This document shows, piece by piece, positions 8,061 through 29,632 of a DNA stretch of 64,000 nt. The notes beneath the pieces were generated by a model. It was not told the origin of the DNA. It made no database searches and worked only from the letters and a program-made list of their open reading frames with translations. Source of the DNA: Nitrospirota bacterium (GTDB lineage: Bacteria > Nitrospirota > Thermodesulfovibrionia > Thermodesulfovibrionales > Dissulfurispiraceae). Position numbers and translations under genes: made by a program. Within the stretch, counting starts at the first letter, position 1, and every line of letters begins with the position of its first letter. The stretch is from contig JAJYVD010000001.1 of NCBI GenBank assembly GCA_021792185.1, positions 97,189-161,188 of the forward strand. Direction: 5' to 3'.

Positions 8061-9551
8061 TTAAAATCGATAGGTTTTCAAAATATTTTTGATCCGTGAG
8101 ATCAGTAGGGCAACAAAATCACTTAATAATACTTTTAAATACTGCGTCTTTCTCATGCTCTTCACTATTATTTTCCAATATAACGGGTTAAGTGTATAAT
8201 CGATAATACTACGCAGTTTATTGGCTCTTGCCGTTGCATTTATCCTGAGTTTGGTTAAATCCAAATGGTGCTCTGCCATGTAAAAGCGTGGATCTGCAAC
8301 CTTAAAATAAAGATTTGGAGTATTGTATATCTTATACTCCTCCTTTGACAGAATCGGTCGCACATAATCCTTGTAAACAGCCGTTCCAGGAAAGGGTACC
8401 GTCAGACATATTGCAACTCTGGTTGGGCGAGTCCGCCGCATCATATCTGTAGTCTTCTGAACATCCTCTGTTGTTTCTCCGGGAGTATTGAACATAAAAT
8501 TAGCGTAAGTTCTCAGCTTATATTTCCTGCAGACTTCGAATGCCTTCACGATCTGATCCTCGGTAATGCCCTTTTTCATCCTCCTCAATGCCTCGTTTGA
8601 GCCTGACTCTACTCCAAAATCTACCTGTATACATCCTCCCTCGCTGATTAGTTTGGCCATTTCTTCATCAATCAGGTTTACCCTTGTCTCCATTGCCCAG
8701 ACCATATTAAGATTTCTCATCTTTAATCCATCCACAAACTCACGCACTCTTTCCTTTTTAAGCAGAAAGGTATCATCAAGGATATAAAAAGAATCGATAT
8801 TATAATTGTTTTTCAGGCATTCTATTTCATCAAGAACCTTTTCAATAGGCCGGAAGTTAACCTTTCTGTTACTGTTAGCACAAAAGGTGCACGAGAAAGG
8901 ACATCCGATAGTGGTAAAAACATGCAGACCTGATATAATGATGTTCCTTATTATTCCTGTATGAGGCTTTGTATAAAAATCCATGTTCAGTTGTGAATAG
9001 TCAGGTTGAGGCATCGCATCCCACTCTTTAAAGCTTGAGGCGCCATACCGCACAATGCTGTCGCCCTCTCTTGGAGTTACTATAACACCTTCGATTTCTT
9101 CTAAGCTCCTACCGGAATTCACACGCGTTATGATCTCAACAAGAGGATACTGACCGTCCCCTTCGACAGCTATATCGATAGGAGTTCCCTTAAAAAAGAA
9201 GTCCTCCGCTTTAATGCTGACATGCAGCCCTCCAACTATTATTGTGCAGCTATGAGCCTGTTTAATCCTACTGCAAAGATCGATTACATCCCAAAACTCA
9301 GAGGTGTAGCAAGGAATTCCCACAAACTTGGGAGCCAGCTCTTTAATTCGTTCGATAATCCTGCTTTTACCGAACTCAATCTGTTCGCTTGTTAAATTTA
9401 TGCCCGGCTGTCCGAATTTTATATCGACAATTTTAGTTTTAATATCACTTTTCGTAAGCCATGCGTGGAGATAGAGCAATGCAGCCGGAACAGTTGCAGA
9501 AGCGCTTCTGTTTGGTGGCGACACGAGACATATATCAGTACCTTTATTCAT
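8061..9551 (-). CDS. B12-binding-domain radical SAM enzyme
   Basis: A 496-residue protein. An N-terminal cobalamin-binding-type domain (about 1-150, with VGGLHVS and the VEGDGQ segment near 129-134) is followed by a radical SAM core with CxxxCxxC cysteines at 217, 221 and 224. A [4Fe-4S] cluster there would cleave S-adenosylmethionine. The C-terminal region carries a basic amphipathic tail. Class B (cobalamin) radical SAM enzymes usually methylate unactivated carbons or phosphorus, but some do ring contractions or C-S chemistry. Within a glycan cluster the substrate is probably a sugar or sugar-lipid; that is inference. One of five enzymes of this architecture in the window. Confidence 0.88.
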   Translation of the reverse strand: MNKGTDICLVSPPNRSASATVPAALLYLHAWLTKSDIKTKIVDIKFGQPGINLTSEQIEFGKSRIIERIKELAPKFVGIPCYTSEFWDVIDLCSRIKQAHSCTIIVGGLHVSIKAEDFFFKGTPIDIAVEGDGQYPLVEIITRVNSGRSLEEIEGVIVTPREGDSIVRYGASSFKEWDAMPQPDYSQLNMDFYTKPHTGIIRNIIISGLHVFTTIGCPFSCTFCANSNRKVNFRPIEKVLDEIECLKNNYNIDSFYILDDTFLLKKERVREFVDGLKMRNLNMVWAMETRVNLIDEEMAKLISEGGCIQVDFGVESGSNEALRRMKKGITEDQIVKAFEVCRKYKLRTYANFMFNTPGETTEDVQKTTDMMRRTRPTRVAICLTVPFPGTAVYKDYVRPILSKEEYKIYNTPNLYFKVADPRFYMAEHHLDLTKLRINATARANKLRSIIDYTLNPLYWKIIVKSMRKTQYLKVLLSDFVALLISRIKNILKTYRF

Positions 9552-12881: not shown

Positions 12882-13835
12882 CTATACATAAACACGGGAG
12901 GCCTCGCTATACAAAACCGTACATTCTTTGCAGGGATTAATACTGACCTTATTGCCGCTGATATGCACCTCTCTAATTCTGTTAAACTTCTCAGAATTAT
13001 AGATTTCCATGATATCGTTATTGCTTATATTTCCAAAACCATACTGTGCCTTCAGGAAATCTTCGCTGCAGAGCGGCATAGAGCCGTCTGAAAGTATAAT
13101 CATATTATAGAAAATATGGTGACAGGGTCTCTTTTCGGTTTCAATATTTAGGCTTAGTTCTCCCAATATTTGATCCTTGCTCGCAACCTCCCCTCCCCAT
13201 GAATGCATATTATAAACAGCAATGAGATCACCCTTAGATTTACTGATCTTGGAGGCCCAAAACATCTTCCATGACTCCAGTTCATGCATATTTATCGGCT
13301 GCTTGATAAATCGCACAATAAAACGCGTTGGGAACCCGCCATCATCTCGCATCCTGATAATGCTCTGTATGTTGTCTACAACACGCTCGTAAGAGACCCC
13401 ATGCCGTATGCTTTCGTGAGTAGCTTTCGAGATACCATCAATACTGAATAGAACCGTCTCGATTCCCGTATCTAAAAGAGCCATTTGCTTGTCAGCATCG
13501 AGGAGGTCCGCATTGGTTGAAATTGCCAGTCTACGGAAACCTTTACCCTTAACATATCCTATCCGTTCAAAGATATACGGATCGAGAAGCGGCTCGCCTA
13601 ATCCGAATAAATCGAACATTTCAATATGGTCTTTATATTCTGTAAGATTGTCTACGATCCTATAGAATAGAGCAGGCTGCATTATTCTTTTTTTCCTATC
13701 CGTAGGATGGTCGATAACGCACATTACGCATTTTGCATTGCATCCGAAAATCGTTTCTATGGTAACCCTCTTGGGTATGAGCCGCTCGCCCTGCCACTGT
13801 AAAATATCGCTTGAGCTTTTTTCTTTTGAATTCAT
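12882..13835 (-). CDS. Radical SAM/SPASM enzyme (tandem copy 2)
   Basis: A 317-residue protein from the ATG at 13835. A GTG 16 codons earlier would overlap the upstream gene and lacks a better binding site, while GATGATGGA sits just before the ATG. The radical SAM cysteines are at 32, 36 and 39 (GCNAKCVMC). The partial barrel contains DLFGLGEPLLDP, and the C-terminal auxiliary region has cysteines in PCHH, PLCSED and CKECTV, consistent with a second iron-sulfur cluster. It is clearly homologous along its full length to the next gene upstream (13852-14769), sharing IETIFGCNAKC, DLFGLGEPLLDP and LAISTNADLLD. SPASM enzymes include sugar and alcohol dehydrogenases and peptide modifiers. A sugar substrate is inferred from context only. 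Confidence 0.85.
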   Translation of the reverse strand: MNSKEKSSSDILQWQGERLIPKRVTIETIFGCNAKCVMCVIDHPTDRKKRIMQPALFYRIVDNLTEYKDHIEMFDLFGLGEPLLDPYIFERIGYVKGKGFRRLAISTNADLLDADKQMALLDTGIETVLFSIDGISKATHESIRHGVSYERVVDNIQSIIRMRDDGGFPTRFIVRFIKQPINMHELESWKMFWASKISKSKGDLIAVYNMHSWGGEVASKDQILGELSLNIETEKRPCHHIFYNMIILSDGSMPLCSEDFLKAQYGFGNISNNDIMEIYNSEKFNRIREVHISGNKVSINPCKECTVLYSEASRVYV

Positions 13836-13851
13836 TTTTTGTCCATCATCC

Positions 13852-14769
13852 TCACGCAGTATATCTCTGCATCTTGTTCTCACTGTAGAGGAGCGTGCAT
13901 TCTCTGCAAATAGTCAGAGTGGTTTTTTTATGATCGGTGTGAAGGCGCCGCATACGTTGAAAATTTGTCCCATTAAAAATATCTATAGGAAGTGTTTCTT
14001 TAACATCACCCATCATATATTTAGCGTGAGGAGTGTCTTCGCAGCAAAGCGGCACTATCCCGTTATTTAAAATAATTAATCTATCAAATACTTGATGACA
14101 CGGCAGCGCTTCGATAGATTCGTCAAGAGGACCGTCGCCCAATAGCTCTTGCTTGCTTATTACTTCCCCTCCCATTGTGTTTACATCATATGCTATCAAT
14201 AGGTCATTTCTTCCTGGTGAGATTTTGGGGTTCCAGTAAGCTAAAAACTGTTCCCATTCGGTCTTGTTGGAATTTTGACGGATGAAACGAATCACAAATC
14301 TGGTCTTATAATTATGTTCATTCCGCATACGGATAATGCTTTCACAATTTTCTATAACCCGCTCAAAAACTACTCCCCTCCGAATATTCTCATGGGTTTC
14401 TTTATTTACCCCATCGATGCTGAATATTACAGTTTCTATGCCGGTTTCTAAAAGGGCATTCTGTTTATGTACATCAAGCAGGTCTGCATTGGTGGAGATA
14501 GCAAGATTTTGAAAGCCCTTTTCTTTTGCATAGCGTATTCTTTCTATTATATGCGGATCGAGAAGAGGCTCGCCCAATCCAAAGAGATCGACCTTTTCTA
14601 TTTGTTCGTTATATGGCTTCATGAAATCAATAATGTGCTTGAACAATTCGATAGACATAATTCCCTTTAATCTTGTGGCAGGAAGACTGACTGCACACAT
14701 AATGCACTTTGCGTTGCAGCCGAAAATGGTCTCTATCTGTAGACGTTTAGGAATCAAAAAGCCCGACAT
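13852..14769 (-). CDS. Radical SAM/SPASM enzyme (tandem copy 1)
   Basis: A 305-residue protein with the CxxxCxxC cluster at Cys 18, 22 and 25, the barrel motif FGLGEPLLDP and C-terminal auxiliary cysteines (PCHQ, PLCCED, CRECTL). It is a diverged paralogue of the gene immediately downstream, with roughly half the residues shared by eye and identical blocks at the cluster and the GEPLLDP strand. The tandem arrangement suggests two successive or heterodimeric radical steps on one substrate. The C terminus ends MQRYTA, and the gap to the next gene is only 16 bases. Confidence 0.87.
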   Translation of the reverse strand: MSGFLIPKRLQIETIFGCNAKCIMCAVSLPATRLKGIMSIELFKHIIDFMKPYNEQIEKVDLFGLGEPLLDPHIIERIRYAKEKGFQNLAISTNADLLDVHKQNALLETGIETVIFSIDGVNKETHENIRRGVVFERVIENCESIIRMRNEHNYKTRFVIRFIRQNSNKTEWEQFLAYWNPKISPGRNDLLIAYDVNTMGGEVISKQELLGDGPLDESIEALPCHQVFDRLIILNNGIVPLCCEDTPHAKYMMGDVKETLPIDIFNGTNFQRMRRLHTDHKKTTLTICRECTLLYSENKMQRYTA

Positions 14770-14794
14770 TATTAAATTATATGAAAACGATTTT

Positions 14795-16165
14795 CTAATA
14801 TAATGCGCTTAACTTCTCAATATATATTTCCGACTTCGGATAAGTAACAGGACGTTGTATTAAAGATGCAATCTCATTGTAGTAGTAATCCAATACTTCG
14901 TCGGGAAGGGTCGTAAAATTAATCATTCGCTCGAAAAATAAATTGCCCAATTTTTTAATGAACTCCCATTCGTCCTCTATCTGGCCATTACTGACGCATT
15001 CCTTCCATAATCTTGTGCCGGGTGACGGCGTCAAATAAGATACCTTCCCTTGTTTTTCAAGACTGTTTTTCTTGATAAAGTTAATCATATCGATATAATC
15101 CTGCTCGGTATCCCATGGAAATCCGACAATAAAATTAACCGAAAATCCAATGCCGTATTTGCGCAGCATATCGAGCTTTTCTTCGACCTCGCTTATTTTA
15201 ATACCTTTATTGATACGATTAAGTGTCTGCTGATTTACAGATTCGATTCCCATAGATGCAACTGCGAGACCGTTATCCTTGCCTAATATGCAAATGTCCT
15301 CATCTATTGCATCTATCCGGCATTGCCCTCTATACGTCAAATCAATCCCCCGCTCCCGCTTTTTTCGAACAAACTCTCTGTAAACCGATTTCAATTCGAG
15401 AAAATTCTCATCCACGAAATAAAACCTGTTGAGATCATACTTATGAATAATCTCGGACATTTCATCCAAAACAATGTCAGGGCTTTTTACGCCGATCCCT
15501 TGCACCAGCTTATGACAAAAAGAACAGTTTCCCTTACAGCCGCGAGATCCCATTATTTCGAACGACTGATTGGTCTCTTTTAGGTAATTTATATAAAACT
15601 CCAAATCAATCGAATCATAATCGGGCATCGAAAACTCGGTGAGCTGATACATATTGTTAACCCGCGCTCCAACAATCATTCTTCCCGGCTTGCTGCCGAC
15701 AATTGCATTCCCTTTCTTGAAAAAAAGGCCTGGAATATTATCCGGATAGAAATTCCCATTTCGTATTGAATGTATAAACGCGGGAAAGCTTTTTTCCCCT
15801 TCGCCGGCCAAAACATAAGAGCACTTACAATTGTTAAGCAACAGTTCCGGCATGGAAGAAGGAAGCGAGCCGCCATAAATGATTATGTGCTCTGGATTTA
15901 TATCCAAGGCCATTTGGGCATATTTTTCCACATGGTTTATATGATCGTTTCCAGCCATAATATTAAAACCGATGATAGCCGGTCTTGACTGAATATTCTC
16001 TCTAAAGAATTTCTCACGGTTCTCGACAGTTACCGGAACGAGATCGACGACATTGAATTCTATACTATGCAGTTTAAGAGCATTAGACAGGACAGACAGC
16101 CATATAGGCAACTGCACTTGCGTGCTTTTTCGCGAGACATTCACTAAAAACACATCATATGCCAT
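14795..16165 (-). CDS. B12-binding-domain radical SAM enzyme
   Basis: A 456-residue protein with an N-terminal cobalamin-type domain (IIYGGSLPSSMPE near 95-107 and LAGEGEKSF near 119-127) and the radical SAM cysteines at 210, 214 and 217 (GCKGNCSFC). Downstream barrel motifs include GIESVNQQTLNRINKG and NFIVGFPWDTEQD, typical of cobalamin radical SAM enzymes. It lies between the tandem SPASM pair and the split thiamine-diphosphate enzyme, separated from the latter by three bases. This makes a joint pathway likely. Reaction unknown; carbon methylation is the commonest activity of this architecture. Confidence 0.88.
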   Translation of the reverse strand: MAYDVFLVNVSRKSTQVQLPIWLSVLSNALKLHSIEFNVVDLVPVTVENREKFFRENIQSRPAIIGFNIMAGNDHINHVEKYAQMALDINPEHIIIYGGSLPSSMPELLLNNCKCSYVLAGEGEKSFPAFIHSIRNGNFYPDNIPGLFFKKGNAIVGSKPGRMIVGARVNNMYQLTEFSMPDYDSIDLEFYINYLKETNQSFEIMGSRGCKGNCSFCHKLVQGIGVKSPDIVLDEMSEIIHKYDLNRFYFVDENFLELKSVYREFVRKKRERGIDLTYRGQCRIDAIDEDICILGKDNGLAVASMGIESVNQQTLNRINKGIKISEVEEKLDMLRKYGIGFSVNFIVGFPWDTEQDYIDMINFIKKNSLEKQGKVSYLTPSPGTRLWKECVSNGQIEDEWEFIKKLGNLFFERMINFTTLPDEVLDYYYNEIASLIQRPVTYPKSEIYIEKLSALY

Positions 16166-16168
16166 ATC

Positions 16169-17104
16169 TTATTGCCTCAAGGTTTTCATTATCGAATTCG
16201 TGTCAATGGAAAATTCTTCAGAGCAGGGGCGCAAGCATTCATCGGTAACATCACGGGTCAGCGTCAAAACGCGGTCTATGCTGCATTCCCGGTAAACCTC
16301 AGTGGTCAAGTGGTAGCATGAACGATTTACGCTTTTACTGTCATCTATAACAATAAGTTTTTTTGTGCGGCTTACGTCTCTTAATATATGAAGCCAATCA
16401 ATAGGGGTCATTACATTTACAGAGAAGAGCGATGAACTCAGTCCCAGAGTTGCAAGTTCTTCTCGAAGCTTCATACCCTGCGGAAATGAGAAATTAAAAC
16501 ATACGATGGTAATATCAGCGCCCTCATAATATTGAAATATCTCGCCATTGTTATAAACCGTTGGGTCGTTTTCGCATGATAGTATTTCTGTTTGAAATAG
16601 ACGCTGGCTGACGCCTATAATACGAAATCCTGGTGATACGAGGTGCGTCCTGACAATATGGTCGGCGTCATGACGGTTTGTGATCGCATAACCGGCAATC
16701 CGTGCAATCGAACAAAAATCGCTGAAATTGTTAAGGCTGGATTGTATCCCTTCATAACCGGAATCAACTACTACAGGCACAATAGTAAATGAAGCGGAAG
16801 GTTCGTTTATTCTTACGAAATTATAGGTATTGACCAGATGGTCGATCCCAAGGAGCAGAAAATCCTGCTGCTTCATAAAAAAAACGGATGAAACGCCGCT
16901 AAGCATAAGCCCGAAACCAATCCCGACTTGTGTACTTTCTATATTAGGCGTATTTATAACGAGTCGCTTTTCGCCATTTTTAAGTCCTCTCGTCAGTCCG
17001 GAAATACAAGATCCTGCAGAAATATTTTGCCCGTAAAGGACAATTGGGTTTGAATTATCTATAGTCGTTCTGATAAGTTCATTTATATGCTGGACGTATT
17101 TCAT
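16169..17104 (-). CDS. Thiamine-diphosphate enzyme, E1-beta/transketolase C-half-like subunit
   Basis: A 311-residue protein with the pyrimidine-binding domain and transketolase C-terminal fold seen in E1-beta chains. Visible are the NTPNIESTQVGIGFGLMLSG segment (about 50-71, the E1-beta region with the glutamate that activates the thiazolium), a MKQQDF stretch where E1-beta has its membrane of loop residues, and a C-terminal alpha/beta domain with DITIVCFNFS and KKLIVIDDS. The start overlaps the alpha-chain stop by four bases, so the two are expected to be made in equal amounts. No E2 or E3 dehydrogenase component lies nearby, so this is not an ordinary 2-oxoacid dehydrogenase. Confidence 0.78.
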   Translation of the reverse strand: MKYVQHINELIRTTIDNSNPIVLYGQNISAGSCISGLTRGLKNGEKRLVINTPNIESTQVGIGFGLMLSGVSSVFFMKQQDFLLLGIDHLVNTYNFVRINEPSASFTIVPVVVDSGYEGIQSSLNNFSDFCSIARIAGYAITNRHDADHIVRTHLVSPGFRIIGVSQRLFQTEILSCENDPTVYNNGEIFQYYEGADITIVCFNFSFPQGMKLREELATLGLSSSLFSVNVMTPIDWLHILRDVSRTKKLIVIDDSKSVNRSCYHLTTEVYRECSIDRVLTLTRDVTDECLRPCSEEFSIDTNSIMKTLRQ

Positions 17105-18021
17105 TGGATTTCACCTGTTAACCTGTTTAACATATCGCAGGATATGTTTCTTAACTGTCCTATCTCGAAGTATCTCGACAAAACAAATACAGGATCGCTG
17201 TCGTCTTCACGAATCAAAGGCCATTCGGAAACTTCTATACTTGGAGATGCGCCTGCGTGATAATTTATAAACTTACCGTCCGGGTATTCTTCTGTTTTCA
17301 GTCGCCAGTCGCCCAACGTTCTCAACTTCACTTCTATAATAACCGGCGCATTTCTTTCAATCGCTTCTCTGCGTGCCTGCTTAAGAGCGGTGATATACGC
17401 GTAGACGTCATTACCTGTTAGTAAAACATAGTCCACATCCAAGGAAGACGCAAAGCGGTCCAAATGAATAGGACAACGGCGTTCCTGTATCCGGGTCGCT
17501 AATGACCATTCATTATTCTCCACTATAACAATGGCATTAAGATTACAGGTCTTTAAAAATGTTACTCCCTCATAAAATGCCCCCTCTTCCATCGCCCCAT
17601 CACCTGTCACCACGATAACAATCCCATCTTCTTCTTTTACCTTTTTACCGAGAGCCATGCCTGCCGCTACGCTGAGATTATTTCCAAGAATACTGGAGGT
17701 GTAAACAATTCCCCTCCTTTCATTTGCTAAATTCATTGCGCCCAGACGCCCACCGGCCAATCCTTCGCTTTTAAGCAGATATTCGTCTATCTCTGCTTTA
17801 AAACAAGGATTGCGTGCTAAATTGTAATGAATATTCCGGTGGGTAAGAACCAACCTGTCATCTTCTTCCATAACAGCGCTTACAGCAACTGCTATAGATT
17901 CATGCCCGAGAGCCAGATGTATCGGAATTTTAAATTCTTTCTTTTTGCACATTTCGTTAATAATCATCTGGCTGAGACGGTTTCGAATGATCTCTTCGGA
18001 AACCTTAATATCTGCTTTCAT
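17101..18021 (-). CDS. Thiamine-diphosphate enzyme, E1-alpha-like subunit
   Basis: A 306-residue protein from the ATG at 18021, chosen because AGGAAGGG stands about eight bases before it. An ATG eight codons upstream has a weaker site. The thiamine-diphosphate motif is GDGAMEEGAFYEG ending in ENNEW (about 140-170). Other E1-alpha features are LALGHESIAVAV near 36-47, GLAGGRLGAMNLA near 82-94 and SSILGNNLSVAAGMALGKK. This fold decarboxylates a 2-oxo acid or cleaves a ketose and passes the acyl carbanion on. Placed among sugar-modifying genes and without E2/E3, it may add a two-carbon branch to a keto-sugar; that is inference. The gene overlaps nothing with this start and couples to the beta chain. 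Confidence 0.82.
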   Translation of the reverse strand: MKADIKVSEEIIRNRLSQMIINEMCKKKEFKIPIHLALGHESIAVAVSAVMEEDDRLVLTHRNIHYNLARNPCFKAEIDEYLLKSEGLAGGRLGAMNLANERRGIVYTSSILGNNLSVAAGMALGKKVKEEDGIVIVVTGDGAMEEGAFYEGVTFLKTCNLNAIVIVENNEWSLATRIQERRCPIHLDRFASSLDVDYVLLTGNDVYAYITALKQARREAIERNAPVIIEVKLRTLGDWRLKTEEYPDGKFINYHAGASPSIEVSEWPLIREDDSDPVFVLSRYFEIGQLRNISCDMLNRLTGEIQ

Positions 18022-18037
18022 ATTAACCGTCCCTTCC

Positions 18038-18610
18038 TTAAACATCTACCCCGCCATATTTGGCCTTAAATGACTTAAAGCTTGGATATGCCCTGTGCTC
18101 ATCTGAGATTATAAGTTGCTTCATATCGTTAAAAGGCCAATTGATAGCCAGTTCAGGGTCATTCCATACGATACCGGTTCCATGCTCTTTTGAATAATAA
18201 TTATCGGAATTGATTACAAGGCAACAATTATCCGTCAAAGAAAGACATCCGTGCGCAAAGCCCCGTAAGACCAATAACCCGTTCGTATTATTAGGAGATA
18301 ATACAAAGCCGTCCCATTGTCCGAATGTCGGGCTTGCCCTGCGAAGATCCACTACAACCCAGTATATCTCGCCGCTGATAATCGTAATAAGCTTTGCCTC
18401 GGTGAATGGAGAACACTGCACATGCATGCCTCTTAAAACATTTTTCGGGACGGTTTGCGAGAAACTTTGCTGCACCCAGCGTATGTCCTCAACATATTCA
18501 TGAAAAACCCTTGCGTCGAAAATGCGAACTAAAGAGCCTCTTTTATCGGTGTAGGCTGGGGGAGCGCTAATTGTATAAACGCCATGCATATGCCCTTTGG
18601 AGATATTCAT
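18038..18610 (-). CDS. RmlC-like sugar 3,5-epimerase family protein
   Basis: A 190-residue cupin close to the usual RmlC length. It keeps the signature segments: RGSLVRIFD near 24-32, VLRGMHVQ with the catalytic histidine near 63, VVVDLRRASPTFGQW, LLVLRGFAHGCLSL and the tyrosine-containing SDNYYSKEH. RmlC enzymes epimerise carbons 3 and/or 5 of 4-keto-6-deoxy sugar nucleotides; single-site variants are common. Its stop overlaps the longer alternative start of the E1-alpha-like gene. A second RmlC-like protein is encoded at 23817-24287. Confidence 0.85.
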   Translation of the reverse strand: MNISKGHMHGVYTISAPPAYTDKRGSLVRIFDARVFHEYVEDIRWVQQSFSQTVPKNVLRGMHVQCSPFTEAKLITIISGEIYWVVVDLRRASPTFGQWDGFVLSPNNTNGLLVLRGFAHGCLSLTDNCCLVINSDNYYSKEHGTGIVWNDPELAINWPFNDMKQLIISDEHRAYPSFKSFKAKYGGVDV

Positions 18611-19458
18611 TTAATTCCGGAAAGCGACATAAGAGAGTAATGGCCTCGAATTGTTTTAGTTCTCTGCAAGTTGAATATCTCGAACCCGCAGATATCAAGA
18701 AGTCTGGATAGCGTTACAGGAGAGAACATCCACAGATGACACGAGTTAAAAATATCATCATCCGAAGGCTTATGCTTAAAGCATAGGGCATCCGGTAATT
18801 CAATATAAAGGAGCGAGTCTTTCTTCATATCCATCCTAACCTGCTGCAATAGAGAAACGGGATCACAATAATGTTCGAGAACAAAAATAAGCGCAATCAG
18901 ATCGAATCTTTCTTCAAACCCTCCCGGCTTGTAATATTGCTGTTTATAAGGGATGCCGTATTTTGATTGTATAAAGCTCCCATCTATGCTGGGATCAATT
19001 ATATACGGCAACCATTCAGCATCGCGAAACTCAAAAGCGAAAACTCCGGTTGCACCGCCTATATCAAGAATACGATATGGAGGGGTGCCTTTTTTTATTA
19101 TTCCTCCTCTCCAAACATTATCTATCTGCGATTTTATCCAATTAACCCGTTGTTTCGTTTCAGATTGGTGGGGGGGCAAGGCAACTACATTATTAAATAT
19201 TTCTTCCGTTGTACTATTGCGCCAGCAAGAGGTCCCTGACCTATAGTCGGCAATATATATACGATCCAGCGCATCCGGCTGCCTGGAGTATTTGGAATAA
19301 TACAATCCGCACCCGGCACATTGCACCCATTTTCTCTTGTAACCCTCCAAAGCTATTCCGACTGCTCTCTCATACTTGTCCGGTTCCGAATAAGAGCATA
19401 TAGTTTCATACTCTTTCGCCCCGCATAACATACACAATTGATTATTCCCGGATATCAT
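18607..19458 (-). CDS. Class I SAM-dependent methyltransferase with N-terminal zinc ribbon
   Basis: A 283-residue protein. The N terminus has two cysteine pairs (CMLC near 9-12 and CAGC near 47-50) that probably bind zinc. The SAM-binding motif is RILDIGGATGVFAFEF (about 128-143), followed by IDPSIDGS and FVLEHYCDP. This zinc-ribbon plus methyltransferase layout is common in glycan clusters and acts on sugar nucleotides or lipid-linked sugars. It overlaps both the RmlC-like gene (ATGA) and the epimerase gene upstream (ATGA). Confidence 0.85.
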   Translation of the reverse strand: MISGNNQLCMLCGAKEYETICSYSEPDKYERAVGIALEGYKRKWVQCAGCGLYYSKYSRQPDALDRIYIADYRSGTSCWRNSTTEEIFNNVVALPPHQSETKQRVNWIKSQIDNVWRGGIIKKGTPPYRILDIGGATGVFAFEFRDAEWLPYIIDPSIDGSFIQSKYGIPYKQQYYKPGGFEERFDLIALIFVLEHYCDPVSLLQQVRMDMKKDSLLYIELPDALCFKHKPSDDDIFNSCHLWMFSPVTLSRLLDICGFEIFNLQRTKTIRGHYSLMSLSGIK

Positions 19459-20339
19459 GCCAAAAATTTCCTAAACGTTTGAAGTCCCTTTTCTAAATCA
19501 AAAACCGGCGCCCAATCCAGCATTTCTTTAGCTTTCTTGTTCGAAATCCTTCTTACGCTCGGTTTGTCCGGAGAACTTTCATGCACAAGTGGATTTTTTC
19601 CTGTAATTTTCTTGCTTGATTCGATAATATCGCCCAACGTGATCAGTCGGTCTCCTTGTATATTCAAAATCTCGAATCCTTTCACCCCTACGGACTTAAT
19701 AATTGCGGAAGCAATATCCGATACATGTATAAAATGCCTTGCAGTCCTCAACGAGCCGACAGTTAATTTCTCGCTGGTAGCCACGGAATTAAATAGAGAT
19801 TCGGCTGCCGACCAGTTGTCCTTACGCGGTCCATAAATAATTCCAAAACGGAGTATCGTTACGGAGCAAAACCCTTGCAAATACTTTTGACGCAGATTAA
19901 CTTCGCTCACTATCTTGGAAAGCGCATATTCCGAAGTTAAATTGGCGATATTTATGACGCTTTCTTCGGTCTTAGGCGGTTCGCCTTCATTAAAACTGTC
20001 ATAAACCCATTCTGTCGAGGCAAAAATAAACTGCTTAACCCCTCTGTTCTTGGCAGCCTCCATTAAATTCAATGTGCCCATTACATTTGCATCGAAACAG
20101 GAATACGCATTATTCTTACAATCCGAATCTCTCGAAAGCGCTGCCAAATGCACAATTGCGTCTGTTCCTTCAGGAATCTGATCAGCCACGGATGCATCCC
20201 TGATATCGCCGATCAAAAAACGCGAGAAATCGGTTATGAACAGATCGTTACCGGCAACTGTAACGCCTTGCTCGTCGCATTGCCTAATCAATTCCCTTCC
20301 TATAAAACTTGAAACTCCCGTAATAAATATCCTCATCAA
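19455..20339 (-). CDS. NAD-dependent epimerase/dehydratase (extended SDR)
   Basis: A 294-residue extended short-chain dehydrogenase. The nucleotide site is ITGVSSFIGRELI near 6-18, the serine strand ASTEWVYD, and the active-site pair YALSK (about 138-142). The C-terminal region carries RHFIHVSDIASAII. The protein is a little shorter than typical GalE-type enzymes. It probably epimerises, dehydrates or reduces a nucleotide sugar that the adjacent methyltransferase and RmlC-like enzyme also act on. The exact reaction cannot be read from the sequence. Confidence 0.82.
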   Translation of the reverse strand: MMRIFITGVSSFIGRELIRQCDEQGVTVAGNDLFITDFSRFLIGDIRDASVADQIPEGTDAIVHLAALSRDSDCKNNAYSCFDANVMGTLNLMEAAKNRGVKQFIFASTEWVYDSFNEGEPPKTEESVINIANLTSEYALSKIVSEVNLRQKYLQGFCSVTILRFGIIYGPRKDNWSAAESLFNSVATSEKLTVGSLRTARHFIHVSDIASAIIKSVGVKGFEILNIQGDRLITLGDIIESSKKITGKNPLVHESSPDKPSVRRISNKKAKEMLDWAPVFDLEKGLQTFRKFLA

Positions 20340-20377
20340 AATCCTCTTTAATTTTTATACGTCGAGATAACAGACGG

Positions 20378-21160
20378 TCAGTCGCCTCCGGAAACAGAGA
20401 ATATCTGCCCCGTAATAAAATCACCGCACTCTGATAGCAGAAAAATTGCCATTCGCGCTATGTCATCAGGTGTTCCGGCTCGCTGCAGCGGGATAAGATT
20501 AAGCCTTTGTTTAAACAGTTTTTCAGTGTATCCTGGAATTTTTTTTTGCATGCCGGTTTCAATAAGGCCGCAACGAATCGAGTTCGCTAAGATTTTATGC
20601 TTTGCCCCTTCACGGGCGAATCCGATTGTAAGAGTGTCCAGAGCCGACTTGGAAGCGGCATAATGAAGATTGTGAGAGCTTCCACCGTATTTTGCAGAGA
20701 CAGTAGTTATATTAACTATCTTTCCTCCTCCGTTCTTCTTCATATGCGGAAATGCCTCTTTGATTAGAAAAAAGGGCGCCTTTACATTGAGATTAAATGT
20801 GTTATCCCATGATTTTTCATTAAGCTCTGAAAAGTGAACGTAATCGTAAATACCACCTGCATTATTGACCAATATCTCAATGCCTCCACACGCATCGACG
20901 AAATTTCTGATAAGATTTTGCTGAACCGTTATATCCAAAAGGTCACCCTGAAAAAGTTCTCCCCATCCTGATAGGCTGCGCACACGATCCACTACCGCTT
21001 GAGCGTCTTTAAGATTGCTCCTGTAATGAACACCAACTTGCGCTCCATGCATCGCCAACTGTTCGGCTATGGCTGCACCTATGCCGGTACTTGCTCCTGT
21101 TACAAGCGCCCTCTTCCCCTTAAGAGAATTAAACATCGACTTGCGTTTTTCCTCCCTCAT
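20378..21160 (-). CDS. Classical short-chain dehydrogenase/reductase (FabG-like)
   Basis: A 260-residue classical SDR: GASTGIGAAIAE (TGxxxGxG, about 18-29), NNAGG near 99-103, catalytic serine in NITTVSAKYGG, YAASK with the catalytic Tyr and Lys, and a C-terminal SGGD. It reduces or oxidises a small carbonyl or alcohol with NAD(P). The start ATG overlaps the preceding stop (TAATG); an internal ATG eight codons later is possible. In this setting a keto-sugar or an acyl side chain is the likely substrate. Confidence 0.85.
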   Translation of the reverse strand: MREEKRKSMFNSLKGKRALVTGASTGIGAAIAEQLAMHGAQVGVHYRSNLKDAQAVVDRVRSLSGWGELFQGDLLDITVQQNLIRNFVDACGGIEILVNNAGGIYDYVHFSELNEKSWDNTFNLNVKAPFFLIKEAFPHMKKNGGGKIVNITTVSAKYGGSSHNLHYAASKSALDTLTIGFAREGAKHKILANSIRCGLIETGMQKKIPGYTEKLFKQRLNLIPLQRAGTPDDIARMAIFLLSECGDFITGQIFSVSGGD

Positions 21161-21882
21161 TAAACAGCACGCCTGCGCAAAAAACCGGTCGGGTTAGAGG
21201 TAATATGCATGCGCGTATAATACGAATCCGCCTCCCACTCCGGATGTTTCGACAGAAAATTATTTATCGCCTTCAGCGGATTATCCTCTTTCCACTCCGG
21301 CTTCCCATTAGGGATATCCCAAACCAGTCCCTGCGCTCCATCCATAACAACCATATAACTATCCTGAGACACCATTTTTGAGTAAAGTTCCATTTCTTTT
21401 AATACATGATCATATGAATGGTTGGAGTCAAGTACAACAAGCACTTTGTCATCTTTGCCTATTCTCTCTCTTGTTTCAGCAACGATATTCTCAGCAACAG
21501 AACTGCCCTCGATAAGTGCAATTCTTTTTGACAAAGGATGGCTATTAATGGCGATCCTATTATATTTCCTGATCTCAACATCAACTCCGATTACCCTTCC
21601 TCTCCCGATAAGCTCCAAGATTGATGCATACAAAACAGCAGAACCGCCGTGTGCAACTCCGGTTTCCACAATAACATCAGGCCTGACCTTCCAGATCAGC
21701 TCTTGCATCATTACGATATCTTCAGGAAACTGAATTATCGGTATTCCAAGCCATGTCGGCTCGTACATCAGTCTATTGTGACACGAGACCTTAGTCCAGA
21801 GATCAGACATTAATGAAAGGCCTTCGGCGCTGTAAATATCAATTTCTTTTTCCATGTCGCCTTGAATTAATTTGATTTTCAT
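21160..21882 (-). CDS. Cephalosporin hydroxylase/CmcI-like methyltransferase
   Basis: About 240 residues from the ATG at 21882, preceded by GGTGG; a GTG five codons upstream is the alternative. The protein matches the CmcI (rhamnosyl O-methyltransferase/cephalosporin hydroxylase, Pfam 04989) family: VIVETGVAHGGSAVLYASIL is the SAM site, followed by IGVDVEIR, VVLDSNHSYDHVLKEME and the family end PTGFLRR. Members in glycan and glycolipid clusters O-methylate sugars with SAM and a divalent metal. It follows hddA by 18 bases and may methylate the heptose-derived sugar. Confidence 0.84.
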   Translation of the reverse strand: MKIKLIQGDMEKEIDIYSAEGLSLMSDLWTKVSCHNRLMYEPTWLGIPIIQFPEDIVMMQELIWKVRPDVIVETGVAHGGSAVLYASILELIGRGRVIGVDVEIRKYNRIAINSHPLSKRIALIEGSSVAENIVAETRERIGKDDKVLVVLDSNHSYDHVLKEMELYSKMVSQDSYMVVMDGAQGLVWDIPNGKPEWKEDNPLKAINNFLSKHPEWEADSYYTRMHITSNPTGFLRRRAV

Positions 21883-21900
21883 ATAACCACCGGTCACTTA

Positions 21901-22878
21901 TTAATGTATGTAGATAATTTTACTGCCTTGCGGCTCAAAAACAAATGGCGTCTCTTTCAGAGAAGTAAGTTCTTCTCTAACGTTATCCTGCCTGTCTTCA
22001 GGACAATAAAAAAGCAAAAATCCTCCTCCCCCGGCGCCTAATATCTTGCCGCCGACAGCCCCTGCCTTAAGTGCTTTCTCATAATATTCATCGATTCTGC
22101 TGCTGCTGATTCCGCCGGCAAGTTTCTTTTTATAAAGCCATCCCTCATGCAGAATTTCTCCAAATGTATGCAGCTCATTTTTTATTAAACACTTTTTAGC
22201 CTCCTCTGCAAGCTTTACCATCTTATCGAGAAACGCTAAATTGTATTTTGTATTTTGCTTTTGTTCTTCAAGAATTTCAGATGAATACCGCTCTATGCCG
22301 GTATAAAAAAGAAGCAAATTTTCATTCAAAGCAGTTTTTGTTCCGTTTTTGCAGATAATAGGATCAACATATACGCTCTCATCCTGATTAAACTGGATGA
22401 AATTCAAACCGCCGTATGCGGCTATAAATTGATCCTGCTTTCCAATAGGATGCCCAAGAATATCAATTTCTATTTTACATGCTTCTTCGGCAAGCCTATG
22501 GGCCGAAACATGCTGTCCTTTATAAGCATATAAGGCATTTAAAACACCGACTGCGAGACTGCTGGAGGAACCCAAACCGATTCCCGCAGATCCGAGAGGT
22601 ATATCACCCATGTAGATTACCTCTATCCCTTTCTCGATGCCGACTATTTTCAATGCCTCTCTGATTATATTATGTTGAATCTTATCGACAGACTCGACAA
22701 GTTCGGTTTGAGAATAACTGACCCGTATGAGATCGTCAAACTTTTTATTAACTGTTATGTATATGTATTTGTCTATTGCCGTACTTATTACCGCTCCATA
22801 TCCTTTGTTATAATATGCAGAAAGGTCGGAACCGCCTCCCGCAAAACTTATTCTCATAGGGGTGCGAGAAATAATCAT
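21901..22878 (-). CDS. hddA: D-glycero-D-manno-heptose 7-phosphate 1-kinase (GHMP kinase)
   Basis: A 325-residue GHMP kinase. It starts IISRTPMRISFAGGGSDLSAYY, the HddA-type N terminus, carries the ATP-binding PLGSAGIGLGSSSSLAVG motif near 93-110 and ends with GAGGGGFLLFYC near 275-290. In the GDP-heptose pathway HddA phosphorylates the anomeric carbon of D-glycero-D-manno-heptose 7-phosphate to the alpha-1,7-bisphosphate. gmhA and an hddC-gmhB fusion within 5 kb support this role over the related fucokinase or galactokinase activities. Confidence 0.87.
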   Translation of the reverse strand: MIISRTPMRISFAGGGSDLSAYYNKGYGAVISTAIDKYIYITVNKKFDDLIRVSYSQTELVESVDKIQHNIIREALKIVGIEKGIEVIYMGDIPLGSAGIGLGSSSSLAVGVLNALYAYKGQHVSAHRLAEEACKIEIDILGHPIGKQDQFIAAYGGLNFIQFNQDESVYVDPIICKNGTKTALNENLLLFYTGIERYSSEILEEQKQNTKYNLAFLDKMVKLAEEAKKCLIKNELHTFGEILHEGWLYKKKLAGGISSSRIDEYYEKALKAGAVGGKILGAGGGGFLLFYCPEDRQDNVREELTSLKETPFVFEPQGSKIIYIH

Positions 22879-23804
22879 TTTACAACTCCACTTTTTTCTA
22901 AATCAGCAAAATAATGCACTGTATTTTTTATACCGTCCGTCAAGCTAAAATTAGGTGTCCACCCGACATCTTTCCTGATATTTGCAGTATCAGCCCAAAA
23001 ATCATCTTTCATACTGTTGTCGACTGCCTTAATCTCGCGAATATAGTTTTTCTTGTATCCCATCGTTTCATAAACTAAAGACAATACATCCAAAACAGCC
23101 GTTGAGAAACCGGAGCCGATATTATAAATGATTCCATCAGGTTTTTTTTGAATTATTTTCACAAGCGCAGCAGCAACATCTTCCACATAAATAAAATCGT
23201 TTTTGTTGGCATAATTTTTTATGTTAGGCGTTTCTCCCAGAGAAACAGCTCTGATAATTGAAGGAATCAATGATGCTTCCCTCTGCCCCGGACCGTAAAC
23301 AAAAAAAAGGCGCGGCCAGTAGAACCTTATCTTATATTCCCTTGCAATCGCTTCTCCTGTAATTCTCAATGCATTTTTAAAAGCGGGAAATGCCTTTGTA
23401 GAGTCGATTGTTGAATTTTCGTGCAAAGCGCCTTTTTTCTCTCGATACTCCCAACAACTGCCTATAGACATAATAGTGCCGCATCCTGCTTTTGCAGCCA
23501 TAAGAAATAAATTCAATCCATGATTAAAATTCAATCTGCACATCTCAATACCGTAATTTGGCAGCCCTTCCCATGCAATATGAAGCAATGCGTCAGGCTT
23601 GAATTCAATAAAGAACTTTCTCCAACCTTCAATGTCGGAAAGGTCGCCGTAAACAACACTGATCTGTTTGTTGTCGGCTGCGGTAATAAATGGATTTTGT
23701 CCGTGCCGCCTTATGAGAAGCATCAAATCATGATTATTTTGTGTAAGCAAGCTTACTGCATGTCTTCCGATGAATCCGGTGGCTCCTGTTATGAATATCT
23801 TCAT
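22875..23804 (-). CDS. NAD-dependent epimerase/reductase with Tyr-to-Phe at the YxxxK site
   Basis: A 309-residue extended SDR with GATGFIGRHAV near 7-17 and the serine strand SIGSCWEYREK. Where the family normally has YxxxK, this protein reads FPAFK (about residues 140-144), so the catalytic tyrosine seems to be phenylalanine unless a nearby residue substitutes. The C-terminal part has FIYVEDVAAALV. It overlaps hddA by four bases and follows the 3,5-epimerase-like gene by 12 bases. Position suggests it is the 4-reductase or an epimerase for the C-methylated keto-sugar; the altered residue leaves activity open. Confidence 0.8.
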   Translation of the reverse strand: MKIFITGATGFIGRHAVSLLTQNNHDLMLLIRRHGQNPFITAADNKQISVVYGDLSDIEGWRKFFIEFKPDALLHIAWEGLPNYGIEMCRLNFNHGLNLFLMAAKAGCGTIMSIGSCWEYREKKGALHENSTIDSTKAFPAFKNALRITGEAIAREYKIRFYWPRLFFVYGPGQREASLIPSIIRAVSLGETPNIKNYANKNDFIYVEDVAAALVKIIQKKPDGIIYNIGSGFSTAVLDVLSLVYETMGYKKNYIREIKAVDNSMKDDFWADTANIRKDVGWTPNFSLTDGIKNTVHYFADLEKSGVVK

Positions 23805-23816
23805 AGAAATGTATTG

Positions 23817-24287
23817 CTAAAAGTCTTTTCTTTCCCAATTGTATGGAATTGTATTTGAATGCGGGCCAATTCTCAAATATTTAATGCATGGATCGTGCGG
23901 TTCTGAGGCAACATTTGCCAAAATCGAATATGGAGACCAGATTCCTTTAGAGGCGTTTGCCACCCCAGAAGGTATGTGCGCAAGACAGTAATTGTCATCG
24001 CCGAAGAAAATTTCTTGAAGATTTCCTTTAGTAGGAGAATCCTCTCTCATATCGTAAAGAACAAGCTTAATCATCCCGGAGATGCATATATAATTTAAGA
24101 TCAGTCTTTCATGCACATGCCAGCCGTTAATGACCCCAAAATATAGCTTTTTGAAATAGACTTCGCCAAAATCGTTTAAAATATTATCTCTTCTGACACC
24201 ATGCATTATCGTGCCGCGTTCGTCGGGTATTCTTTTTAACGGTTTTATAACGACTCCATCTATTTCACCTTTTATAATATCCATCAA
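23817..24287 (-). CDS. RmlC/cupin-type sugar 3,5-epimerase family protein
   Basis: A 156-residue cupin, shorter than classical RmlC. It shows PDERGTIMHGVR near 20-31, VYFKKLYFGVINGWHVHERL with histidines in the cupin position, LVLYDMREDSPTKG and HIPSGVANASKG. These match dTDP-4-dehydrorhamnose 3,5-epimerase-related proteins found beside sugar C-methyltransferases. It overlaps the C-methyltransferase gene by 23 bases. It probably epimerises the 4-keto sugar made in the same block. Confidence 0.82.
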   Translation of the reverse strand: MMDIIKGEIDGVVIKPLKRIPDERGTIMHGVRRDNILNDFGEVYFKKLYFGVINGWHVHERLILNYICISGMIKLVLYDMREDSPTKGNLQEIFFGDDNYCLAHIPSGVANASKGIWSPYSILANVASEPHDPCIKYLRIGPHSNTIPYNWERKDF

Positions 24288-25524
24288 GAACCTCCTCTAT
24301 CGTCATGATTTTAGGCGGATGGGGAAACGGTATAATCAGCCGTCCTTTAAATCTATAATCATTTTTAAGTATCAAAGCTATCTCTTCAAGGAAATTCCAT
24401 GCCATGATGAAAACAGTATCAGGCTTGCTATTCATTACATCATCTGGAGCCTCTATGGGAATGCATGTTCCTGGTGTAAAGCGCTTATGTTTCAGATGGC
24501 TCTGATCGGCTATAACAGAAATCTGTCCTGTATCTATGCCGCAAAAATTAAGCAGCGTTGAACTCCTTGCAGATGCCCCATAACCTACAATATGCCTATG
24601 GCTCTTTACTTCCTCATCGATGATATTCAGCAACTGTTGCCTATGCTGGAAGGCTCTGTTTGCAAATGATTGCCAGCTTGACAACTCGTTGGTCATCCCG
24701 ACATTTTCTATGTCTCTATATCTCTGCACAGTTTCTTCTTCGCGCACTTTCACTTTTTTCGCGTATAAAACGATAGACCCTCCGCTTATGGGACTCTCGG
24801 CAATATCATATACAAAGAGCGAAAATGCATTAAGCAATTTCTCTACGCTTTTCAGAGAGAAATAACATAAATGCTCATGATATATGGAATCATAATGCAA
24901 TTCTTCAAGAATAACTTTAGCGTAATGTATCTCCAACGCCAAAACGCTATCGTCATCCATACATAAACTAAGTCCCTCTATAAAGTCATGCAAGTTAGCA
25001 ACATGCGGAAGAACGTTGCGGGCAATAACAATTTGCGGATAGCCGTGTTTATCAATAATTTCCCGGGCAAGTCCCCGACCAAAGAAACCGCATATGGTCG
25101 GCATACCTGAAGCATTAGCAATCCTGACAATATTTTGAGCAGGATCGATGCCCAACACATTGAATCCTTTGTTTAAAAAAGGCTGAAGAAATGTCCCGTC
25201 ATTACTCGCTACCTCGAGTATATATCTATTTTCGTTAGCTTCCGATCTTTTGAGAACCTCCGAGCAAAAAACCTGTGAATACATCTTCGCTGTAGATGAC
25301 GTTCCTGTAACCCAAACATATTCCGAAAAAAGCTCTTTCGGGTCGGCAGTATGATTGAGCTGGACAAGATTACAATCCTCGCACCAGCTTAAAGATAACG
25401 GATAACTTTTTTCAAATTCGTTCGGATTTTTTAAAAGAGAATTAGCAAGAGGTTGAATCCCAAAATCAAAAAATAGTTTTAATTTTTTGCCCTCGCATGC
25501 TCTACATTTTTCTATAGGCTGCAT
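24265..25524 (-). CDS. Sugar C-methyltransferase (TylC3/NovU-type three-domain)
   Basis: About 419 residues from the ATG at 25524, which has AAGGAG ten bases before it; an upstream ATG eight codons earlier has none. The N-terminal zinc domain has cysteines at 7, 10, 48 and 51. The central SAM domain includes ILEVASNDGTFLQPF, and the C-terminal half carries the histidine-glutamate pair EIHYAKVILEELHYDSIYHEHLC region and GYGASARSSTLLNF. That is the Methyltransf_13/Methyltransf_14 layout of 3-C-methyltransferases acting on 4-keto-6-deoxy nucleotide sugars. The product would be a branched sugar. Epimerase-like genes on both sides support this. Confidence 0.88.
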   Translation of the reverse strand: MQPIEKCRACEGKKLKLFFDFGIQPLANSLLKNPNEFEKSYPLSLSWCEDCNLVQLNHTADPKELFSEYVWVTGTSSTAKMYSQVFCSEVLKRSEANENRYILEVASNDGTFLQPFLNKGFNVLGIDPAQNIVRIANASGMPTICGFFGRGLAREIIDKHGYPQIVIARNVLPHVANLHDFIEGLSLCMDDDSVLALEIHYAKVILEELHYDSIYHEHLCYFSLKSVEKLLNAFSLFVYDIAESPISGGSIVLYAKKVKVREEETVQRYRDIENVGMTNELSSWQSFANRAFQHRQQLLNIIDEEVKSHRHIVGYGASARSSTLLNFCGIDTGQISVIADQSHLKHKRFTPGTCIPIEAPDDVMNSKPDTVFIMAWNFLEEIALILKNDYRFKGRLIIPFPHPPKIMTIEEVLDGYYKR

Positions 25525-25538
25525 ATCGAATTTTCTCC

Positions 25539-26570
25539 TTATATCCATCTCAGTTCTGAATTCAACTGCCTATGTTCCACCAGGTACTTTAGCTGAGCCA
25601 ACCTTACACACCTTCGTCCCCTGAAGTCCTCCTCGGAAAAGTTTATATCTTTAAACATTTTCACCAGTTCTTCACCTCCGCGTTCCAAATCCCACTGAGG
25701 CTTATAGTAATCTTTCAGGACGGTCAATATCTTATTAAAACCTACTCTATAGGTTCTGGAATCGCTTCCATGTTCTCCGGTAAAAACAAGAGTGCTTCCC
25801 TTCACAGCCTTCTGTGCCGCCAAGGCAATATCGCGAACGGTAAAATTTCCGTTTTTAAATCCGACATTGAATGCTTGTCCCTGTATCAGCGATATCGGAG
25901 CCTCCAACCCCGCAATAAATGCGGAACAAACATCCTGTATATGGACTACCGGCCTCCATGGAGTTCCATCGCTTTTAATCTCGATATTTCCTGTTGTGTA
26001 GGCGCATGCTACGAGATTATTAAACACAATATCGCATCTCAATCTTGGACTAACACCGAATACCGTTGATGGGCGGAAACTGACAACCGAAAATGTATTA
26101 GAGCTCATTTTTCGCAATTCACATTCCGCGTTCCATTTTGTCTTTGCATAGGCAGTTATGGAATTTTTCTCACTATTATCTTCATCCAGTTCACTGTCTA
26201 CATCTGCTATGCCGTACATGCTCTGTGATGATGCATAGACGAATCTCTTTACGCCGGCTCTCTTTGCACAATGAGCAAGTTTCATCGTTCCATGGTAATT
26301 AATTGCTTCCGTCAGCTTTGGATCAAACTCACCTAAAGGATCGTTTGAAAGCCCAGCCAGATGGATTACATAATCAATTCCCTCCAAATCCTCCATAGTA
26401 ACGTCACGAATATCTTTCTTGATCTGTTGCCTTCCTTTATCGAACTCCCATAATTCAGAGCCATCATAGTAATCAGCGTCATATCCGATTACGTTATAAG
26501 CTCGTTCCATGAGCATCGCTTCTAATATTGGACCTATGTATCCCCTGTTACCTGTTACTAAAACGTTCAT
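25539..26570 (-). CDS. NAD-dependent sugar epimerase/dehydratase (extended SDR)
   Basis: A 343-residue extended SDR beginning MNVLVTGNRGYIG, with HLAGLSNDPLGEF, the SSQSMYG strand and the YAKTK catalytic pair near 143-147. The C-terminal region holds WRPVVHIQDV. The protein family with this TGNRGYIGP start commonly accompanies sugar C-methyltransferases and nucleotidyltransferases. It may be the dehydratase or epimerase acting on GDP-heptose or a related nucleotide sugar; the specific step is not fixed by visible motifs. It follows the hddC-gmhB fusion by 40 bases. Confidence 0.83.
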   Translation of the reverse strand: MNVLVTGNRGYIGPILEAMLMERAYNVIGYDADYYDGSELWEFDKGRQQIKKDIRDVTMEDLEGIDYVIHLAGLSNDPLGEFDPKLTEAINYHGTMKLAHCAKRAGVKRFVYASSQSMYGIADVDSELDEDNSEKNSITAYAKTKWNAECELRKMSSNTFSVVSFRPSTVFGVSPRLRCDIVFNNLVACAYTTGNIEIKSDGTPWRPVVHIQDVCSAFIAGLEAPISLIQGQAFNVGFKNGNFTVRDIALAAQKAVKGSTLVFTGEHGSDSRTYRVGFNKILTVLKDYYKPQWDLERGGEELVKMFKDINFSEEDFRGRRCVRLAQLKYLVEHRQLNSELRWI

Positions 26571-26610
26571 TTATTTTCTCCATTTTATCAAGTTCAGTAA
26601 TAATCAAGAT

Positions 26611-27807: not shown

Positions 27808-27821
27808 CTGCTCCTTGATAA

Positions 27822-28409
27822 TTATGATAGATATATGCCTTGCGCACTTACAACCAAATCGAGAACACAGTGGCATATCGAATGATGAATAATTTCAACA
27901 GGACCGTATGCCTGTGCAGAAACATAAAAGTTTATATCTCCCATCTCTGACAATGGATTAGCCGCATCAAAACCTGATAGAGTTATAACCCTACATTTTT
28001 TTTGACGCGCAGCAGCAACCCCGCATAAGATATTTTCTGATCTTCCGGAACTGCTAATTGCAACAAGGGCATCACCCTCATCCGCAAACATTTGAATGGG
28101 CTTCTCAAAGACATGCTTATACCCGTAATCATTGCTAATGCATGTTAGAAGCGCCCCGTCATTGAATGATATCGCCTTTATTCCGCCGGTTTTCCAATAA
28201 TCTACGGACATATGACTTGATATAGACGAACTGGCGCCGTTGCCTATAAACATAACCTTATTGCCCGACTGCTTCAGCCTTATGATATCTACTGCAAGAT
28301 CATCCACAGCCTGATTAAAACTTATCGCTTTATTGCTTCCGTCGGTCACCCTGACATTCCGCATGAGATTTATAATATCCTCGTAATATTTCTTGCTTCC
28401 TAAAGACAT
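27822..28409 (-). CDS. gmhA: Sedoheptulose 7-phosphate isomerase (SIS domain)
   Basis: A 195-residue SIS-domain protein of the usual GmhA length. It has KVMFIGNGASSSISSHMSVD near 60-79 and AISSSGRSENILCG near 117-130, the two phosphosugar-binding loops, and a C-terminal histidine-rich helix (EIIHHSICHCVLD) matching the GmhA active site. It converts sedoheptulose 7-phosphate into D-glycero-D-manno-heptose 7-phosphate. It lies 14 bases before the hddC-gmhB fusion, giving the first steps of the heptose pathway in order. Confidence 0.88.
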   Translation of the reverse strand: MSLGSKKYYEDIINLMRNVRVTDGSNKAISFNQAVDDLAVDIIRLKQSGNKVMFIGNGASSSISSHMSVDYWKTGGIKAISFNDGALLTCISNDYGYKHVFEKPIQMFADEGDALVAISSSGRSENILCGVAAARQKKCRVITLSGFDAANPLSEMGDINFYVSAQAYGPVEIIHHSICHCVLDLVVSAQGIYLS

Positions 28410-28428
28410 TTAACGCTCCTTTCCTGTT

Positions 28429-29538: not shown

Positions 29539-29632
29539 TAAATACAAAAACCCTTAAAAAACTATGTTAATAATAACCATCGCTCATATAAATTACATTC
29601 GTTAATTCAGCCTTAGGTTTATCGACTTTCAC

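Follow-up and report, generated by a model that had tools for sequence, protein, structure and literature searches.

Investigation of a 64,000-nucleotide window of a Nitrospirota bacterium assembly (GCA_021792185.1, contig JAJYVD010000001.1, positions 97,189 to 161,188) revealed six open reading frames (ORFs) at positions 12882-18610, all on the minus strand, which encode an RmlC-like epimerase, the alpha and beta subunits of an E1-type thiamine diphosphate (ThDP) enzyme, a B12-binding radical S-adenosylmethionine (SAM) enzyme and two radical SAM/SPASM enzymes. The genes are separated by a 25-base and a 3-base gap, with the remaining junctions overlapping, and their order and spacing as given in an initial annotation of this stretch were confirmed by the ORFs and family matches. 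The operon extends beyond 18610, upstream to about 29547, adding genes of heptose metabolism, and the thiamine enzyme pair is considered here together with these genes.

Regarding the identity of the pair, the alpha subunit matches the Pfam family E1_dh with 109 bits, against 21 bits for Transketolase_N. The beta subunit has no Pfam match and matches the NCBIfam model of the pyruvate dehydrogenase E1-beta (2e-12) far below the model's cut-off, and a search of PDB sequences matched it to the solved E1-beta chain 1um9_B (2.8e-14); by NCBIfam, the PDB sequence search and the predicted fold it is clearly an E1-beta, though too divergent for Pfam. AlphaFold models of the two subunits have mean predicted local distance difference test (pLDDT) values of 81 and 83, and Foldseek ranks E1-alpha and E1-beta first for them, the E1-alpha match having an E value of about 1e-15.

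A scan with short exact peptide patterns over 84,980 species genomes yielded five E1-beta relatives (50-56% identical), hosted by a Chloroflexi metagenome-assembled genome (MAG), an archaeal MAG, an unclassified bacterium, Sulfuritalea and another Proteobacteria MAG. When 399 genomes from the phylum of Sulfuritalea were searched with a profile, one further relative emerged (genome G375, locus L062), and such searches added none from 400 genomes of the phylum of the Chloroflexi locus or from 371 of that of the archaeal locus. Within the phylum of the window itself, 295 further genomes held no relative, and viral contigs contained none either. The family is therefore rare and patchy.

Comparison of the seven loci (the window and six others), some of which are cut by contig ends so that presence counts are lower bounds, showed that the alpha and beta genes adjoin or overlap in all seven, and that a heptose kinase within 10 kb of the pair and an RmlC-type cupin are likewise present in all seven. 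The nucleotidyltransferase-GmhB fusion, a homolog of the 4-dehydrogenase and a CmcI-like gene were each found in six of the seven, and a TylC3-type C-methyltransferase and the nicotinamide adenine dinucleotide (NAD)-dependent epimerase/dehydratase NADepi_b, which typically lies near the E1 pair, in five. By contrast, a heptose kinase was near none of nine comparison E1 pairs, comprising eight that are E2-linked or presumed so and the second pair of G306, which lacks an E2. In the archaeal locus (L048:5426-8149) NADepi_c, NADepi_d (the 4-dehydrogenase relative) and CmcI are fused in one protein of 907 residues. Among 226 other genomes from the phylum of the window, neither NADepi_b nor the first SPASM enzyme had a close relative at E <= 1e-45, a pattern that points to horizontal gain. 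The conserved unit is thus the E1 pair with the GDP (guanosine diphosphate)-heptose genes, which is larger than, and replaces, the grouping of five genes, three of them for radical SAM enzymes, that the initial annotation had put forward as the module; the broader description as a sugar-modification module is supported.

In an alignment of 29 E1 pairs, the ThDP-binding motif GDG...NN is retained in the E1-alpha proteins of the family and the catalytic Glu56 of E1-beta is invariant. All seven members have serine in place of the histidine of the QHS motif of the beta subunit, and the loop of the alpha subunit that carries the second histidine has been rebuilt with an insertion. His263, which is invariant in the family, might stand in for the canonical alpha histidine, a point that the alignment cannot decide. 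According to the title of a PDB entry for the human branched-chain ketoacid dehydrogenase, the two corresponding histidines function in reductive acylation; judging from the family motifs, we take these to be the aligned alpha and beta histidine columns. The pair has the fold, ThDP motif and catalytic glutamate of a 2-oxoacid dehydrogenase E1, and has neither a dedicated E2 partner nor, apart from a possible alpha counterpart in His263, the lipoyl-acylation histidines.

An ordinary 2-oxoacid dehydrogenase E1 with its E2 and E3 encoded elsewhere would account for the fold and family of the pair, and the statement in the initial annotation that no E2/E3 partner exists holds for the cluster around the pair but not genome-wide, as the home genome has one E2 gene. 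This gene, however, is located on C51 beside its own separate canonical E1-alpha/E1-beta pair, tests of five other host genomes showed E2 (PF00198) to be missing from four, which as MAGs are possibly incomplete, and the beta histidine of lipoyl-acylating enzymes is gone. Assignment to a dehydrogenase complex was therefore rejected after the search for an E2 partner in the neighborhood, the home genome and other host genomes; it is strongly disfavored, and the earlier view that the pair is not the E1 of such a complex is supported.

Regarding heptose metabolism, the isomerase, kinase, phosphatase, nucleotidyltransferase and 4-dehydrogenase of the GDP-heptose pathway are all matched in the operon, several of them below curated cut-offs (Table 1), and HddC is one among a number of comparable model matches. 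The protein at 25539-26570 has a single match below 1e-20 among solved structures, 6vo6, which we take to be the Campylobacter GDP-heptose 4-dehydrogenase Cj1427. The RmlC-like protein (18038-18610) scores 145.6 bits, slightly short of the NCBIfam equivalog cut-off of 155.75. Cj1427 has been studied structurally and uses 2-oxoglutarate, yielding L-2-hydroxyglutarate (PMC10680097), so that the LhgO-like gene of the operon fits this chemistry; its product could recycle the L-2-hydroxyglutarate by-product of the 4-dehydrogenase. LhgO-like relatives were also observed near E1 pairs in L050, L066, L067 and L093, a recurrence that would follow from L-2-hydroxyglutarate production by a Cj1427-like enzyme in these heptose clusters. 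Compared with the Campylobacter jejuni GDP-heptose pathway (GmhA, HddA, GmhB, HddC, Cj1427, Cj1430, Cj1428), the window matches the early steps, the 4-dehydrogenase and the RmlC-type epimerases, but adds a C-methyltransferase and the E1 pair; the paper on the C. jejuni pathway has no mention of thiamine or branched sugars (PMC10680097).

Table 1. Genes of the operon at 12882-29547 of the window, with the matches on which their assignments are based and their occurrence in the other loci.
Feature	Position	Strand	Evidence and occurrence
Radical SAM/SPASM enzyme 2	12882-13883	-	Pfam Radical_SAM and SPASM; accessory; 52% identical to enzyme 1
Radical SAM/SPASM enzyme 1	13852-14769	-	Pfam Radical_SAM and SPASM; accessory; 51% homolog, L062 only
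B12-binding radical SAM enzyme	14795-16165	-	Pfam B12-binding and Radical_SAM; accessory; 43% homolog, L062 only
E1-beta, 311 residues	16169-17104	-	NCBIfam, PDB sequence match, fold model
E1-alpha, 314 residues	17101-18045	-	Pfam E1_dh 109 bits; ThDP motif; fold model
RmlC-like nucleoside diphosphate (NDP)-4-keto-sugar 3,5-epimerase	18038-18610	-	PF00908 dTDP_sugar_isom 156 bits; PDB RmlC matches 7e-36
SAM methyltransferase MT_b	18607-19458	-	PF13489; not found in other six loci
NAD-dependent sugar epimerase/dehydratase NADepi_b	19455-20339	-	Pfam; 55-60% identical in L047, L048, L051, L062
Short-chain dehydrogenase, candidate ketoreductase	20378-21160	-	PF13561; homolog in L062 only
CmcI/rhamnosyl O-methyltransferase-like protein	21160-21897	-	PF04989 235 bits; 6/7 loci
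HddA-type heptose-phosphate kinase	21901-22878	-	PDB 3k85 2.1e-47; NCBIfam HddA 1.4e-47, below cut-off; 7/7 loci
NAD-dependent epimerase/reductase NADepi_c	22875-23804	-	PF01370; recognizable (31-43% identity) in 5/6 other loci
Second RmlC/FdtA-like cupin RmlC2	23817-24287	-	PF00908 30 bits; 71% L051, 47% L062
NDP-sugar 3-C-methyltransferase, TylC3 type	24265-25548	-	PF08421/PF08484; PDB D-mycarose 3-C-methyltransferase 1.3e-65
Cj1427-like GDP-heptose 4-dehydrogenase NADepi_d	25539-26570	-	PDB 6vo6 1.4e-32; 36-64% identical in 5/6 other loci
Fused heptose-1-phosphate nucleotidyltransferase and GmhB phosphatase	26611-27876	-	GmhB model above cut-off, HddC model below; 6/7 loci
GmhA-like sedoheptulose-7-phosphate isomerase	27822-28409	-	TIGR00441 1.2e-24, below cut-off
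L-2-hydroxyglutarate oxidase-like (LhgO-like)	28429-29547	-	NF008726 235 bits vs cut-off 299

In the pathway proposed here, sedoheptulose-7-phosphate would pass through GmhA, HddA and the HddC-GmhB fusion to yield a nucleotide-activated heptose (probably GDP-D-glycero-manno-heptose), whose C4 would be oxidized to a ketone by the Cj1427-like dehydrogenase with 2-oxoglutarate as oxidant, the L-2-hydroxyglutarate possibly being reoxidized by the LhgO-like protein. The 4-keto sugar would be epimerized by the RmlC-type enzymes and C-methylated by the TylC3-type enzyme. The E1 pair with ThDP would decarboxylate a 2-oxoacid, pyruvate being the likeliest donor, and the acyl anion, rather than being passed to a lipoyl domain, would join the sugar ketone to give a tertiary alcohol carrying an acyl branch, with finishing by NAD-dependent reductases and methyltransferases. 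What the analysis shows directly is which genes are present, their conservation across genomes, the independence from E2, the family to which the pair belongs and its active-site residues. We infer that GDP is the carrier and that the branch is attached at C4, and likewise which acid is the donor, how the steps are ordered and what the product is; for donor, position and product the pathway is modeled on AviB1/AviB2, Pau11/Pau12 and KbDH (PMC4425429, PMC4753412, PMC12247030).

The pair probably grafts a two-carbon branch onto an unusual seven-carbon surface sugar, and we put at roughly 55% the probability that, in a surface-polysaccharide operon making a branched heptose, it joins a 2-oxoacid-derived acyl unit to the keto group of a GDP-4-keto-heptose. 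Acyl-anion addition is favored because of the supply of a ketone, the TylC3-type and RmlC-type neighbors acting on 4-keto sugars, and the independence from E2. Further support comes from the kinase near all seven family pairs and none of the comparison pairs, the loss of the beta histidine with retention of the ThDP residues and the glutamate, the predicted E1 folds, the LhgO-like genes, the three-part fusion in L048 and literature precedent. Several points weigh against it: the HddA, HddC and GmhA assignments are under the NCBIfam equivalog cut-offs, L062 lacks a clear Cj1427-like gene, several of the host genomes are MAGs and possibly incomplete, the family is likened to AviB1/AviB2 or KbDH by descriptions and not by sequence, and the long branch on which it stands in the tree, apart from E2-linked pairs and from a second sugar-cluster group (see below), could mean a chemistry other than that proposed.

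The acyl unit might instead be added to a target other than heptose, either another sugar of the same polysaccharide or an aldehyde in chain extension, since a polysaccharide cluster produces a number of different sugars and further epimerases and nucleotidyltransferases are encoded in the window; with the heptose kinase in all seven loci while other polysaccharide genes vary, such a target appears unlikely. The operon begins at sedoheptulose-7-phosphate and transketolases belong to the same superfamily, and split transketolases are present in the related sugar clusters L067 and L071, which would suit a split transketolase-like pair that either supplies the heptose pathway with sedoheptulose-7-phosphate or transfers a hydroxyacetyl (ketol) group onto a keto-sugar, a role put forward for miharamycin and amipurimycin. 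However, the alpha subunit falls to E1_dh and not to Transketolase_N, Foldseek places E1 subunits first rather than a transketolase fold, a separate split transketolase is encoded in the home genome, and L067 and L071 hold both kinds side by side, so that this role is quite improbable.

Regarding the radical SAM enzymes, homologs of the B12 enzyme (43% identical) and of a SPASM enzyme (51%) recur near the pair in one of the six other loci, L062, which belongs to a different phylum, and both kinds of gene are absent from the other five; recurrence of the five-gene neighborhood in other genomes, which the initial annotation had suggested looking for, was therefore found for the surroundings of the E1 pair but largely not for the radical SAM part. 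The second SPASM gene looks like a duplication. SPASM enzyme 1 has weak PDB matches to BlsE-type cytosylglucuronate decarboxylase and BtrN, both of which act on sugar-derived substrates; these matches are in keeping with a role in sugar chemistry but do not establish one. The radical SAM genes are accessory to the module, and in this genome their products may modify the same or another sugar. A single dedicated module in which all three radical SAM enzymes and the thiamine pair serve one sugar, as the initial annotation proposed, would be a compatible addition to the acyl-addition pathway and agrees with the tight packing of the genes in the window, with the L062 homologs and with the radical SAM genes near many related E1 pairs, but given the five loci without them and the abundance of radical SAM genes elsewhere in the window it is possible rather than likely. 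Four more such genes were observed in the same polysaccharide region (8061-9551, 38463-39392, 40877-42307 and 48572-49552), two of B12 type and two SPASM-like. In the polysaccharide cluster, a 605-residue protein at 35476-37293 has no Pfam match, and an ORF inside this region (45819-46445) looks by eye like a transposase fragment.

Alpha/beta pairs of E1 type that attach two-carbon (C2) branches to keto-sugars are known, or have been proposed, from the biosynthesis of avilamycin, paulomycin, aldgamycin and kibdelomycin (PMC4425429, PMC4753412, PMC12247030), and were overlooked (AviB1/AviB2, Pau11/Pau12, KbDH) where single-chain YerE was given as the only precedent. In a review of 2025, branching pairs of the E1 type are placed in pathways to antibiotics, and surface sugars are attributed to YerE-like enzymes (PMC12247030). 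Like AviB1/AviB2, Pau11/Pau12, KbDH-alpha/beta and the aldgamycin pair, the window has separate E1-type subunits beside sugar-modification genes of a nucleotide-sugar cluster, no E2 and a predicted acyl addition to a keto-sugar; those pairs, however, as described in the cited papers, belong to antibiotic clusters with proposed hexose- or pentose-derived substrates, whereas the window family is found in heptose surface-sugar clusters and has lost the beta-histidine motif. YerE-type enzymes (yersiniose and relatives) share the kind of reaction and the surface-polysaccharide setting proposed for the window pair, but YerE is a single chain of the decarboxylase/acetolactate synthase superfamily and the window enzyme has two subunits of the E1 family. 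E1-type sugar-branching pairs are thus already known as a kind. No AviB-like cluster was seen among the inspected plasmid and phage matches, which were complexes, catabolic genes and other polysaccharide clusters. Coxiella virenose was considered as a possible known home of the module and set aside, the passages available mentioning a C-methyltransferase and heptose-type genes and no E1 pair. Literature searches on E1 genes with heptose, O-antigen, capsule or branched nonoses yielded nothing relevant, and no publication placing an E1 pair in a heptose pathway was found in the searchable literature, which leaves out most subscription papers.

E1 pairs of a second group, also from polysaccharide clusters (for example on Solidesulfovibrio magneticus plasmid pDMC1 and Azospirillum plasmids), resemble the window in having no E2 and in lying beside a heptose kinase or isomerase, epimerases and often an aminotransferase or radical SAM gene, but share only some 17-25% identity with the window pair, retain the canonical histidines and form a separate branch of the tree. 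This larger group without a nearby E2 spans several phyla (L063, L064, L065, L066, L067, L071, L072, L073, L077, L079, L052, L093 and L094) and gives the impression of a wide set of sugar-branching enzymes that have yet to be studied. Split transketolase-like genes at L067:12809-14526 and L071:13546-15264 share polysaccharide clusters with E1 pairs.

On a wider and more tentative view, an unrecognized pathway may have spread horizontally among bacteria and at least one archaeal MAG, making doubly branched surface sugars (C-methyl and acyl, with nine or more carbons) from GDP-heptose via a new E1-derived family that forms C-C bonds and lacks the lipoyl-acylating beta histidine. The acyl addition proposed for the pair is directly testable, since its substrate is obtainable by published routes. 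If true, it would extend E1-type branching from antibiotic pathways to heptose surface sugars in several phyla, would provide a new family of enzymes that produce tertiary alcohols, and would predict branched heptoses for polysaccharide chemists to look for.

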